Origin: an uncultured Chitinophagaceae bacterium
Lineage (GTDB): Bacteria; Bacteroidota; Bacteroidia; Chitinophagales; Chitinophagaceae
NCBI GenBank assembly: GCA_903904335.1
Contig: CAIVCF010000144.1
Location: 1-35,830, forward strand
Length of the DNA stretch: 35,830 nucleotides
Direction of reading: 5' to 3'
This document shows, piece by piece, positions 652 through 20,469 of the stretch. Made by a program: the position numbers and the translations under genes. The notes beneath the pieces were generated by a model, which was not told the DNA's origin, ran no database searches, and saw only the letters and a list, made by a program, of their open reading frames with translations. Within the stretch, counting starts at the first letter, position 1, and every line of letters begins with the position of its first letter.

Positions 652-1866
652 ATGTCAAAGAATAATATCACTATACTTATTGTAATAATCAAGTCTAAAA
701 TAAATCGTAATGGACGAGCTCCATTATACATAAGAGTATCTCAGAATTATCAAAGGAAAACTATCTCTACAGGATATAATGTAGACCCAAAGAAATGGGA
801 TAAAGCAAAGATGAAAGTAAAAGGAAATGACGAAGAAGCAAATGCTATTAATGAATACCTACAACAAACAAAAAGTAAACTTGTAAGCCTTTATAACGAT
901 ATGCTTAAACAAGGGGATTTTCATCTTGATAAGTTAGTAGATAGATTTTTCGGAAGAGATTATTCTCCCATGACCTTAATGGAGCTCGTTAAATATCACA
1001 ATGAGGACTTTAAGAAGCGTATAGGGATCGATTACAGCTTCTCTACTTATGAGAAGTATGATATTCTCAGAAAGAAATTAGAAGCCTTCCTGCCCTTTAA
1101 ATATGGCAAACAGGATATACGCTTAAGGGACCTTACTATCCAATTTGCAGTTGACTTTGATTACTACCTGAAGAGCCATGATAATAACCAGCACAATACA
1201 GTAGTGAAGTATATCATCAATTTAAAGAAGATGATAAATATGGCTGTTACCAATGACTGGATGGTTAAGAGCCCTTTTACCAAGTTCAAAGCATCCTTTA
1301 AAGATGTGGAAAGGATTTATTTGTCATTGGAGGAATTAAAGGCTATAGAAAACAAGGAATTTAAAATGGAAAGATTAAGCCTTATTAAAGATATGTTCCT
1401 GTTTCAATGTTATACTGGATTAGCATATAGTGATATGGCTAAATTAACCTTGGATGATATTAAATCAGGCATAGATGGAAATAAATGGATAATCATCAAC
1501 AGAAAGAAAACCGATGTAAGAAGTGCAATACCATTACTTCCTTATCCTTTGATGCTGATAGAAAAGTATAAAGACCATAAAAAGGGGAAATACCTTTTGC
1601 CATGTTACAGTATACAGAAATTTAATTCATACTTACAGGAGATAGCAGATCTGTGTGGAATAAATAAGAACCTTACTTCCCATGCAGGTAGGAGAACTTT
1701 TGCAACAACTGTGGCATTGGCAAATGGGGTATCTATAGAGACCATTAGTAAGATTCTGGGCCACAGCACAACAAAGATTACACATCAGTATGCAGTAGTA
1801 ACTGATTTGAAGGTTAGTCAGGAAATGGGAATATTAAAAGGTAAAATGAATAAAGGAGCAGTATAA
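652..1866 (+). CDS. Bacteroidetes-type tyrosine recombinase / site-specific integrase
   Basis: This 404-residue protein has the usual three-part layout: an N-terminal arm-binding domain (about residues 1-90), a SAM-like core-binding domain (about 105-205) and a C-terminal catalytic domain. Catalytic elements visible are the Lys of the beta-hairpin (NRKKTD), HAGR (TSHAGRRTF), the second His in LGHSTTKITHQY and the Tyr nucleophile in HQYAV. The first catalytic Arg position of the family reads TGLAYSD, so Arg is replaced by Ala, as occurs in some Bacteroidetes integrases (IntDOT has Ser there). With the tRNA-Asn scar 200 bp upstream it is very likely the integrase of an element that used that tRNA gene. 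Length is normal and the frame is intact, so it is probably functional. Confidence 0.93.
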   Translation: MSKNNITILIVIIKSKINRNGRAPLYIRVSQNYQRKTISTGYNVDPKKWDKAKMKVKGNDEEANAINEYLQQTKSKLVSLYNDMLKQGDFHLDKLVDRFFGRDYSPMTLMELVKYHNEDFKKRIGIDYSFSTYEKYDILRKKLEAFLPFKYGKQDIRLRDLTIQFAVDFDYYLKSHDNNQHNTVVKYIINLKKMINMAVTNDWMVKSPFTKFKASFKDVERIYLSLEELKAIENKEFKMERLSLIKDMFLFQCYTGLAYSDMAKLTLDDIKSGIDGNKWIIINRKKTDVRSAIPLLPYPLMLIEKYKDHKKGKYLLPCYSIQKFNSYLQEIADLCGINKNLTSHAGRRTFATTVALANGVSIETISKILGHSTTKITHQYAVVTDLKVSQEMGILKGKMNKGAV

Positions 1867-1880
1867 ATCGCTCCTTTATT
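1849..1880 (+). terminator. Terminator hairpin overlapping the integrase stop codon
   Basis: AATAAAGGAGC (1849-1859) and GCTCCTTTATT (1870-1880) form a perfect 11-bp stem with a 10-nt loop that contains the integrase stop codon. It could terminate integrase transcription, or block readthrough into the next gene 45 bp on. The run of T residues is short, so efficiency is uncertain. Confidence 0.55.
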
Positions 1881-1924
1881 AAATTACCTATTAATTTTAT
1901 TGTAAAATACAATAATCTGAACTT

Positions 1925-3103
1925 ATGACAGAGACACCAGGCCATATTGTTCTTAAAAGAAAAGATGGATACATACAATTGGGATACAATTACTATCTAC
2001 CAACAGAGAATGTTCAAGGAAATAATATAATAAAACAGGCAAGGCTATTTAGAATTGAAGAATATAAAAAAGAGGAAAAGATTTTATATTTAAAAAATGA
2101 CGGAGATGCTAATGAGCACCTTTTTGAGCAATCTGCAATATTAATTAACAATTGGCTAATTGAAAATGAGCCAGTGAAAATAGTAATTAAAAATAGTTAT
2201 AGGGAAGCAATAATAGACTGGTCAAGACCACCCGAAGTGACTTTCCAGAGACCCAATTTGGTAGAATTAATTAGAAAACCTGAAACATTTACTGAACAAC
2301 TTAATGTTGATATATGCGATTCGAATTTTGAAGATGGGCTTATACGCTGCAAGGTCTATAGCAAGAAAATGAAAATGGAAATTGAAGTAAATGTTGAAAA
2401 TAGTTTTATCGCTAAATCTTTTGACTCTGTTAAGGATTATTTCAAAAAAGTTTTAAAAAAACCATTTGATATTGAAATAACTATTACACACGAAGGAAAG
2501 AACATTCTCAGTCAATCTGTAAAATCGGAGACGATAAAATCTATCGACGCTTCGGTAATTACAAAAATTGAAGAATTGCAGATTGACGATTTATTTAATG
2601 GCTTAGATAACGATGAAATAATTGAACTAAATCAGTTCCCGCCTACAATACTTGAAAAAGCAAAAGAAGAAAATTGGTTATGGGATTATCTTATTCAAGA
2701 AAATAAAACAAAACATTATTATCATTTAAGATACCTATCCTCTTTACAAGAAATTGAATTTGATAAACTTAAAATTACAGGCAAGCCCTTGTCTTTTTTA
2801 TTTGTAATAAAAAGTAGCAATAGTCTTTTTCTAGTTTGGGAAACATATGAGACTGAAGAAGCCACATATATCTGGGAAATAAAAGAATCATCAGAATCGG
2901 GAAAACGGGAAAGATGCAATGAATTGATCGATATAATAAAGGGGATTCGAAGAAACAAAAAGTTAGAATACATAAGAGAAAATCACAAAGATTTTAAGAG
3001 AATTTTTCATCAATATCAATTAGATAAATTTGGATTTGAAACATGGAAAAAGGAGATTAATGAATTTTTAATAAAAGACAGTATTCTGATCATAAAACGG
3101 TAA
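1925..3103 (+). CDS. Hypothetical protein, probable cargo of the integrated element
   Basis: A 392-residue, AT-rich gene starts 58 bp after the integrase. I do not recognise its family. The protein is acidic/lysine-rich with no signal peptide and no membrane segment, so it is likely cytoplasmic. The N-terminal half looks beta-rich (for example IRCKVYSKKMKMEIEVNVE), and the C-terminal third mixes an aromatic strand pattern (FLFVIKSSNSLFLVWETYE, about residues 288-306) with helical, charged segments. No nuclease, helicase, ATPase or toxin motif was found by eye. Its position beside an integrase and its base composition suggest accessory cargo; a defence or regulatory role is possible but unsupported. 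Confidence 0.75.
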   Translation: MTETPGHIVLKRKDGYIQLGYNYYLPTENVQGNNIIKQARLFRIEEYKKEEKILYLKNDGDANEHLFEQSAILINNWLIENEPVKIVIKNSYREAIIDWSRPPEVTFQRPNLVELIRKPETFTEQLNVDICDSNFEDGLIRCKVYSKKMKMEIEVNVENSFIAKSFDSVKDYFKKVLKKPFDIEITITHEGKNILSQSVKSETIKSIDASVITKIEELQIDDLFNGLDNDEIIELNQFPPTILEKAKEENWLWDYLIQENKTKHYYHLRYLSSLQEIEFDKLKITGKPLSFLFVIKSSNSLFLVWETYETEEATYIWEIKESSESGKRERCNELIDIIKGIRRNKKLEYIRENHKDFKRIFHQYQLDKFGFETWKKEINEFLIKDSILIIKR

Positions 3104-18881: not shown

Positions 18882-19298
18882 TTACTCACAATTTTTACAA
18901 ATGCCGCTTACAATTACATCTGCACGTTTTTGTGTAAAGCCTTTCGGTAATATTACTTCAGGAACGGTAATATTATCCAGACAATACGTTGTGCCGCAAT
19001 CATCACAAATAAAGTGCACATGGTTATCGTGATGATGACCCGTTGTGCATTCATCTTTACACAAAGCATAGCGAACTGAATTATCAGCCGTAGGGATGGT
19101 ATGAATGATACCTTTCTCTACAAAAGTTTGTAAAGTGCGGTAAATGGTAACACGGTCATACGTTTCATCTGTTTTCTTTTCGATATCTGCATGAGCCAAT
19201 GCGCCATTGGTTTCCTGAAACAATTCAAGAATTTTTGTACGGCTGCCAGTAACGCTCAGCTGATTTCGTTTTAATATTTCTGCAATTTCATTTTTCAT
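18882..19298 (-). CDS. Fur-family metal-responsive repressor (Zur- or Fur-like)
   Basis: A 138-residue protein. The winged helix includes TYDRVTIYRTLQTFVEKGII (about residues 46-65). The structural zinc pairs are Cys98/Cys101 (CDDC) and Cys134/Cys137 (CKNC), and a His-rich GHHHDNHVHF (87-96) supplies further metal ligands. It lies 9 bp after the Sco1 gene and the pair ends in a terminator. A perfect 7-1-7 inverted repeat, the shape of Fur-family operators, lies between sco1 and merC, and is a likely target of this protein. Which metal it senses (zinc, iron or copper-linked) cannot be told from sequence alone; Zur is a reasonable guess. Confidence 0.92.
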   Translation of the reverse strand: MKNEIAEILKRNQLSVTGSRTKILELFQETNGALAHADIEKKTDETYDRVTIYRTLQTFVEKGIIHTIPTADNSVRYALCKDECTTGHHHDNHVHFICDDCGTTYCLDNITVPEVILPKGFTQKRADVIVSGICKNCE

Positions 19299-19307
19299 AA
19301 TAAACGT

Positions 19308-19967
19308 TTAAGGATTGTTGTTGAAAACACCATTGGCAAAATTTCCTTTCAATGCTTTTTCTTTCAATAAGCCCTTAATATCTGTTTTTAATTTTTCAAG
19401 TTCGTTCTCCTTTAAACCATCATATACGGCACCGCGAACGATACCGTTCTTATCAACCAAAGCAAAAAATTGTGTATGGATAAAATCATCCTTGATATTC
19501 GCTACTACATTTTTCGGATCATCAATGCCGTAACTGAATCTTGCCATCTTATATAAACTGTCTTTCCTTCCTGTCAGGAAAACCCATTTTTTGGTATCCA
19601 CTTGCAATGAATCGGAATAATGCTTCATTCGCGGAACAGAATCTGTTTCAGGATCACATGAATGAGACACTATTAAAAAGTCGGGCTCATCTTTGAATGC
19701 CTCATAAATTTTTTTCATGTTGTTATTCATACGCGGGCAAATGCCTTTACAAGAGGTAAAGAAATAATTCACCACACAAACCTTGCCCTGCATATCGGCA
19801 TTTGTAAACAGAACACCGTTTTGATCGGGAAAAGAAAATGTTTGTACATAACCGCGTTTATCCAAAGTGCTTTTTGAAAGGATGTCTGTTCCGTTGAACA
19901 CGAAAAAGAAAAATAAGAGTACAAGTACAATAAAGAAAACAAGGTATCCCAATAATTTTTTGTTCAT
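19308..19967 (-). CDS. SCO1/SenC family copper chaperone
   Basis: A 219-residue protein with one N-terminal membrane anchor (LVFFIVLVLLFFFFVF, about residues 9-24) and a thioredoxin-fold domain outside the membrane. Copper ligands are Cys73 and Cys77 in TSCKGICP and His164 in FIHTQFF. Such proteins deliver copper to the CuA site of cytochrome c oxidase or keep its cysteines reduced. It is first in a two-gene operon with the Fur-family regulator and lies divergent from merC. Confidence 0.94.
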   Translation of the reverse strand: MNKKLLGYLVFFIVLVLLFFFFVFNGTDILSKSTLDKRGYVQTFSFPDQNGVLFTNADMQGKVCVVNYFFTSCKGICPRMNNNMKKIYEAFKDEPDFLIVSHSCDPETDSVPRMKHYSDSLQVDTKKWVFLTGRKDSLYKMARFSYGIDDPKNVVANIKDDFIHTQFFALVDKNGIVRGAVYDGLKENELEKLKTDIKGLLKEKALKGNFANGVFNNNP

Positions 19968-20038
19968 AGTATCAATTATAGCGTAAAGTTAGGAGATGCG
20001 TTCTCTCAAAATTATTTCTTTACAACTCTAACAAATTA

Positions 20039-20069
20039 TTTGCAACAATGTTGCATTCGAATATCTTTG
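20039..20069 (+). promoter_or_regulatory. merC promoter, Bacteroidota -33/-7 type
   Basis: TTTG at 20039-20042 and TATCTTTG at 20062-20069 are separated by 19 bp, an excellent match to the TTTG / TAnnTTTG promoter. The merC start codon is only 5 bp after the -7 box, about where transcription should begin, so the mRNA may be leaderless. Confidence 0.7.
20041..20055. promoter_or_regulatory. Perfect 7-1-7 inverted repeat, candidate Fur/Zur operator
   Basis: TGCAACA-A-TGTTGCA is perfectly symmetrical in the 7-1-7 arrangement of Fur-family sites. It overlaps the -33 element and spacer of the merC promoter and lies 73 bp upstream of sco1, which is in an operon with a Fur-family gene. Binding would block merC and could also affect sco1-fur. 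The dyad is seen; the regulator assignment is inference. Confidence 0.65.
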
Positions 20070-20073
20070 CAAA

Positions 20074-20469
20074 ATGTCTGGATTAAAAATTAATTGGGAT
20101 GCATTGGGAATAACCACTTCTTTGGCATGTGCCATACATTGTGCATTATTGCCTTTGTTTTTATCAACGCTTCCTTTATTCGGTGTCAATATCATTCATA
20201 ATCTGAGTTTTGAATTGGGAATGATCGCACTCGCATTTTGCATCGGTTCCTATTCTTTATATCATGGATACAAAAAACATCACCACAGCCTGAAGCCCTT
20301 ATTTATATTTTCTTTCGGAATGATCTTGTTGTTTACAAAACAAATTCTGCACGAATGGGAAATATGGTTTTTAATACCTGCCGTTATTTGTATCGTTTCG
20401 GCGCATGTAATGAATTATAAATCCTGCAGGGTGCATAATCATGCACATACAGACGATTGTGATCATTAA
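20074..20469 (+). CDS. MerC-domain inner membrane protein
   Basis: A 131-residue protein with about four hydrophobic segments. The MerC signature CAIHCALLPL (Cys19, Cys23) sits in the first membrane helix, and the C-terminus is His/Cys-rich (HNHAHTDDCDH). MerC of mercury operons carries Hg(II) across the membrane, but chromosomal Bacteroidota homologues without mer genes are probably transporters for other metal ions. The 7-1-7 operator over its promoter and the neighbouring Fur-family gene support control by metal supply. No mer genes are present nearby. Confidence 0.9.
   Translation: MSGLKINWDALGITTSLACAIHCALLPLFLSTLPLFGVNIIHNLSFELGMIALAFCIGSYSLYHGYKKHHHSLKPLFIFSFGMILLFTKQILHEWEIWFLIPAVICIVSAHVMNYKSCRVHNHAHTDDCDH

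Follow-up and report, generated by a model that had tools for sequence, protein, structure and literature searches.

The window analysed here, a stretch of 35,830 nucleotides forming positions 1 to 35,830 of contig CAIVCF010000144.1 from an uncultured Chitinophagaceae bacterium, carries merC on the forward strand and, divergently oriented, sco1 and a gene for a Fur-family regulator on the reverse strand. A palindrome lies in the intergenic space, close to the merC start codon. The features of the locus are listed in Table 1.

Table 1. Genes and predicted regulatory features around the merC promoter; positions are those of the window
Feature	Position	Strand	Basis
Fur-family regulator of 138 aa, PF01475, probable Zur	18882..19298	-	Pfam and alignment
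sco1, PF02630, 219 aa, CxxxC at residue 73	19308..19967	-	ORF and Pfam
Candidate -7 element TAACTTTA of sco1-fur, leader 12, operator centre -69	19984..19991	-	Sequence
-33 element TTTG of merC promoter, overlaps operator	20039..20042	+	Sequence
Operator TGCAACAATGTTGCA, predicted Zur box, core TGCAAC-N3-GTTGCA	20041..20055	.	Motif search and conservation
-7 element TATCTTTG of merC promoter	20062..20069	+	Consensus and position as given in the available part of PMC6847099
Predicted merC transcription start, A of ATG	20074..20074	+	Inferred from the -7 box
merC, PF03203, 131 aa, CAIHC and His/Cys-rich tail	20074..20469	+	ORF and Pfam

A first-pass annotation had described the palindrome as a 7-1-7 operator and had proposed a genome-wide search for the 15-mer. 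The palindrome was indeed present at 20041-20055 and the search revealed no second exact copy in 3.1 Mb: TGCAACAATGTTGCA occurs once in the whole genome (3,109,660 bases), and an exact match to TGCAACANTGTTGCA was likewise obtained at this position alone. Comparison of 38 merC sites (the window and 37 related loci) showed that the bases TTGCAAC and TTGC are invariant, with variation at the three central positions and at the final A. The 7-1-7 symmetry is a feature of the window copy; the core that is conserved reads TGCAAC-N3-GTTGCA. With up to three mismatches to this core, three matches were found in the window and 3.7 were expected, so that the exact copy alone is notable there. Nine places with at most one mismatch were found in the genome; at this density, the merC copy included, such a site would fall by chance into a given 106-bp space with a frequency of about 3 in 10,000. 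The convincing ones among the nine are those of merC and of a receptor operon. A further one (L115; contig C99, 9923-9937) is an intergenic TGTAACTTAGTTGCA ten bases 5' of an ORF whose start is signal-like and which has no Pfam match, another (L219) is intergenic and 5' of a transposase-like ORF (named by eye), and the remaining five lie within ORFs.

The merC promoter shows the layout TTTG-N19-TATCTTTG-CAAA-ATG and conforms to the Bacteroidota consensus. It is near-ideal and lies under the operator, as previously claimed: the palindrome overlaps the -33 TTTG, and TATCTTTG ends four bases before the ATG at 20074. Mapping in Flavobacterium johnsoniae placed the last G of TAnnTTTG at -5, according to the available part of PMC6847099; with the box at 20062-20069, the merC transcript is therefore predicted to start at 20074, which gives a leader of 0. 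Predicted leaders were also determined for the best 80 of 187 merC loci found in genome contigs, with TAnnTTT[GA] as the box. The merC leader was exactly 0 in 54 of the 80 loci and 0-8 nt in 77, the other three having no box; among 536 other ORFs of the same loci, it was 0 in 6 and 0-8 nt in 51. For merC, alternative in-frame ATGs were accepted in the count, which tilts it somewhat in favour of merC, and loci that are related do not count as independent. The position of the -7 box and the conserved short predicted leader thus support the earlier suggestion that merC is leaderless or nearly so, and merC is probably leaderless. Near-zero predicted leaders were likewise seen at merC loci lacking the fur gene, indicating that the short leader is independent of the operator. 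Mapped leaderless messages are few in Bacteroidota: about 3.7% of 5' UTRs are shorter than 10 nt in B. thetaiotaomicron (PMC7366714, available part), 5.5% of mapped mRNAs are leaderless in F. psychrophilum (PMC9723704, available part) and 13% of predicted leaders measure 10 nt or less in F. johnsoniae (from 87% longer; PMC6847099). merC would be a conserved case of predicted leaderless expression. In the MerC protein, residues C19, H22, C23, H64, H69-71, H111, C118, H121, H123, H125, C129 and H131 were kept in 81 of 81 sequences, the loci having been found with peptides that include some of these residues. The conserved His and Cys residues fit metal handling, and a role in uptake may be guessed from the company the gene keeps.

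Occurrence of the site was then compared with that of the regulator gene. All 37 merC loci of the main set with adjoining fur-sco1 carried the site 5' of merC (12 exact, 25 with one mismatch), and all of them kept the divergent order of sco1-fur and merC. A site with at most one mismatch was found in none of the 43 merC loci without adjoining fur, where the best had two mismatches, or in none of 40 when three contig ends with less than 400 bases upstream (L057, L061 and L063) were excluded. The remaining 613,433 bases of flanking DNA contained no copy with at most one mismatch. A regulator homologue (E<=0.001) was detected in none of 10 sampled fur-less genomes and exactly once in each of six sampled fur-bearing genomes. 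On the MerC tree, fur-bearing and fur-less loci were divided by a single split (100/99), so the pattern reflects one event and not 80 independent ones. When the search was started from the regulator, 27 of the best 30 family loci held merC and all 27 had the site, 25 of them exact; these loci overlap partly with the main merC set. An independent contrast came from a further 32 genomes of the family that have no close Fur orthologue; a MerC match was obtained in six of them. Three of these six (G044, G075 and G079) had no Fur homologue at E<=1e-10, and the vicinity of merC contained no site within one mismatch; MerC identity was 66% in G044 and 46% in G075, and the G079 protein gave no tblastn match to the window MerC and was recognised by Pfam only. 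In the other three (G062, G144 and G099), where a Fur homologue is present but more distant, a site within one mismatch lies near merC, in G099 344 bases 5' of the merC ATG. Among 147 family genomes, the exact 15-mer occurred in 18 of the 112 that have a regulator homologue and in 1 of the 35 that have none (p 0.045). The 19 family loci with an exact site included merC in 11 cases by tblastn or Pfam and in a twelfth, L101, by eye; at L100 the site adjoined a receptor gene, and the rest included oxidoreductases and genes without a clear link. Co-occurrence of site and regulator gene supports the view, taken in the first-pass annotation, of a Fur-family-type operator over the merC promoter that would be bound by the neighbouring regulator. 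A chance palindrome was rejected in view of the genome-wide uniqueness of the site and its occurrence at merC in relatives.

Some merC loci showed additional features. At L096, merC and an exact site are accompanied by the gene of a very divergent Fur-like protein (1531-1944, reverse strand; 26% identical, no Pfam match), in which, as judged by eye, the CxxC pairs are retained and Cys80 is not. At L221, the merC locus of G044, the 66% identical merC is preceded by another inverted repeat, GGTTGTCAAC...GTTGACAACC, with no TGCAAC site, and a box TACATTTG lies four bases before the merC ATG. The sequence AAAGGTAATATTATTTT was found upstream of merC in 27 of 43 fur-less loci versus none of 37 fur-bearing ones, and within it lies the mirror image of a TAnnTTT box for sco1. 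Exact sites could also be observed near genes for pyridine nucleotide-disulphide oxidoreductases at L106 and L110 and near L101.

The palindrome had further been thought to link MerC transport with Sco1. A single Fur-family operator would then jointly control merC and sco1-fur as a self-contained MerC-Sco1 (copper) switch, an explanation we consider unlikely. It agrees with the divergent order kept in the 37 fur-bearing loci and with preferred operator-sco1 distances at -39 to -42, -47, -59/-60 and -67 to -70. This periodic pattern is weak, being matched by 1.2% of random sets, and its best period is 9.2-9.3 and not 10.5, with -47 out of phase; an activator-like phasing relative to sco1 was set aside on these grounds. 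Measured over 36 rows, the operator centre lay between -39 and -105 relative to the predicted sco1 start; where two boxes fitted, the one closer to the start of sco1 was used (in the window, a second candidate box TAATTTTG would give a leader of 35 and an operator centre of -46). The spacing between the site and the merC -7 box, in contrast, was nearly constant, at 20-23 in 34 of 38 loci and 34 in the other four, where the right arm could supply the -33 TTG (by eye). Moreover, three of the four loci with fur-sco1 and without merC (L161, L172 and L189) had no site, the site being present in L182. L161, L172 and L182 came from the search with the regulator and L189 from a search of the class; no PF03203 match was found in the genomes of these four loci, that of L182 (G112) being 69% complete. 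At 41 of the 43 fur-less loci sco1 was still beside merC, without the site, and other sites often adjoin zinc-related genes. The copper/Sco1 link was rejected because the site follows merC and not sco1. The divergent genes are as annotated, a Fur-family gene (PF01475) and sco1 (PF02630); the link to copper was not supported, and the metal is most likely zinc. Nor is the switch self-contained, since a one-mismatch copy heads the operon of a ZnuD-like receptor elsewhere in the same genome.

The regulator matched PF01475 with 52.6 bits (cut-off 23.1) and was the sole match to this family in its genome. In an alignment of 43 sequences (the window and 42 loci with at least 50% identity over 120 residues), H66, C80, C84, H89, H93, H95, C98, C101, C106, C134 and C137 were invariant. 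The C4 structural zinc site, made up of two CxxC pairs (C98, C101, C134 and C137), was thus present in 43 of 43, and the regulatory His/Cys site typical of Zur was found at H66 and C80. In the HMMER alignment these two residues fell on the His and Cys of E. coli Zur, positions which we take to be zinc ligands. C80 also aligned with a Cys of M. tuberculosis FurB and with a Thr in Fur 8j6w, and the Cys of S. coelicolor Zur was placed on C80 by MAFFT and on C84 by HMMER. FurB and S. coelicolor Zur, both zinc regulators, were the best two PDB sequence matches. No cut-off was reached against the curated NCBIfam models, the Zur model scoring 40.5 of 167 bits. The AlphaFold model (pLDDT 79) showed a Fur-family fold, and all 50 Foldseek matches listed were Fur-family structures, with Vibrio Fur as the best; the fold search was discarded as a discriminator, as Zur, Fur and PerR were not separated by it. 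Neither sequence nor fold distinguishes Zur from Fur or PerR; the regulator is most likely a zinc-responsive Zur and not an iron or copper switch, and the name Zur is used provisionally. Fur fold, C4 pairs and His/Cys positions are shared with E. coli Zur (4mtd), M. tuberculosis FurB (2o03) and S. coelicolor Zur (3mwm), as are zinc-uptake targets, which are predicted for the window regulator. The latter differs from these three repressors in the additional invariant C84 and C106. Their AT-rich Zur boxes differ from the window operator.

The best other site in the same genome has one mismatch and overlaps the 5' end of a small ORF that precedes a TonB receptor gene. The best PDB match of this receptor was ZnuD (E 4e-16); among NCBIfam models, those of heme receptors scored higher than that of ZnuD, all below cut-off. 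A related receptor was found in 82 of 117 family genomes. The best 30 receptor loci contained a site with at most two mismatches in 16 cases and with at most one in 9, where about 0.07 are expected per 1,400 bases. The site was present in 16 of 22 receptor loci from genomes with a close regulator orthologue, in 0 of 7 with none and in 0 of 1 with a distant homologue (with versus without orthologue, Fisher p 0.001). It was absent at up to two mismatches from 6 of the 22, the upstream DNA being incomplete in L136 and L140, and the same-genus relative G024 had no site before its receptor. In the window genome, no site with fewer than four mismatches was found in the 4.8 kb stretch of a second receptor (47% identical), and none with fewer than three in the loci of four cobW-family matches, one of them HypB-like by eye. 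A different layout was seen upstream of the receptor operon in L130, L133, L134 and L147: there the site overlaps TACATTTG/TATATTTG (by eye) and would thus cover the -7 box and start, not the -33 element. The class search, in which 27 of 30 fetched loci were from outside the family, yielded Fur homologues 38-53% identical, and 13 of these 27 loci had a site with at most one mismatch. Their neighbours included cobW (L198, L215), TonB receptor (L200, L203, L216), ZIP (L206), MerC (L190-L192, L211) and DUF4625 genes (L200, L213, L215), and a ZigA-type COG0523 gene was present at another site-bearing locus. Members of a zinc-uptake regulon (ZnuD-like receptor, ZigA and ZIP) were thus found across relatives, the evidence within the window genome being convincing for merC and one receptor operon alone.

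That the regulator is instead the iron sensor Fur of the cell, with merC as an iron- or heme-linked target, is very improbable. No other PF01475 protein is encoded in the genome, the receptor scores higher on heme-receptor models than on that of ZnuD (all below cut-offs), and the top Foldseek match is Vibrio Fur. Against these stand Cys80, invariant across the 43 sequences and with Thr at its place in Fur 8j6w, FurB and S. coelicolor Zur as the top two PDB sequence matches, ZnuD as the top PDB match of the receptor, the ZigA and ZIP genes at other sites, and a motif equal to the predicted Desulfovibrio Zur box (PMC545781, available part). Among the neighbours of the sites examined, none was recognised as a gene dedicated to iron, although the receptor resembles heme receptors too. 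Least probable is use of the palindrome by some DNA-binding protein other than the neighbouring regulator: some exact copies do adjoin oxidoreductases or unrelated genes (L104, L106, L109, L110, L112 and L113), but site and regulator co-occur at merC and, separately, at receptor genes.

Our preferred reading, which we regard as highly likely, is that the palindrome is the operator of a Zur-type repressor encoded by the second gene of the divergent sco1-fur operon, and that merC is repressed by zinc and transcribed leaderless upon release. The site is very probably the docking site of a zinc-sensing repressor encoded next door, and its place before merC would mean that the transporter is made when zinc is short. 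From the computed site, promoter geometry, conservation, regulator co-occurrence, Zur-type positions and zinc-related neighbours we infer that the regulator binds, that zinc is its effector, that it represses, where the transcript starts and in which direction MerC transports. With sufficient zinc, a zinc-bound repressor dimer would occupy 20041-20055, cover the -33 element and spacer and deny RNA polymerase access to the merC promoter. Under zinc shortage, the repressor would be released and merC transcribed from the A of its own ATG, giving a message that is leaderless or nearly so. MerC, a small His/Cys-rich membrane protein, would presumably help to bring zinc in, and may act together with the ZnuD-like outer-membrane receptor, whose operon has a related site.

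The operator class was already known by prediction, since ATGCAACNNNGTTGCAT, which has the same core as TGCAAC-N3-GTTGCA, was predicted in 2004 as the ZUR site of Desulfovibrio znuABC-zur (Rodionov 2004; PMC545781, available part). In both systems a Fur-family gene lies in or next to the target unit, and both are predictions; the Desulfovibrio box belongs to another phylum and has ZnuABC as its target, whereas the window has MerC and the ZnuD-like receptor. As here, TonB receptors and COG0523 genes stand under Zur-type sites in the Zur regulons described in the available parts of PMC6103462 and PMC2770081; the review PMC6103462 contains neither MerC as a whole word nor 'Bacteroidetes'. The available parts of PMC9976891 and PMC12574912 contained nothing on Zur of Bacteroidota, and PMC10957091 gave no match to the terms sought. 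No tie between MerC and Zur was found in the literature searched (MerC with zinc, Bacteroidetes Zur, and the motif), a search whose scope excluded most subscription papers and RegPrecise. MerC of mercury-resistance operons has a PF03203 domain with paired Cys, as does the window merC. The window differs from these operons in having a Zur-type site; when six of its proteins were scanned (those of merC, sco1, fur and three adjacent genes), neither MerR/MerA nor any mercury gene other than merC was found. Each component is of a familiar type, but the pairing of a Zur site with a "mercury" transporter looks new.

It is plausible, and suggested here tentatively, that MerC proteins of Bacteroidota are inner-membrane zinc-starvation importers under Zur, with a message that is leaderless in Chitinophagaceae and a promoter kept there despite loss of regulator and operator. 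If true, the role of MerC in Bacteroidota differs from mercury transport. The analysis provides this phylum with a testable zinc-starvation operator, its proposed regulator and a set of candidate targets, including MerC proteins, currently classed with mercury resistance, and DUF4625 proteins, whose function is not known. The DUF4625 proteins (L200:1991-2437, L213:671-1435 and L215:2017-2742), some of them His-rich, are encoded next to the site and a Fur homologue or zinc genes, and are candidate zinc-starvation proteins.
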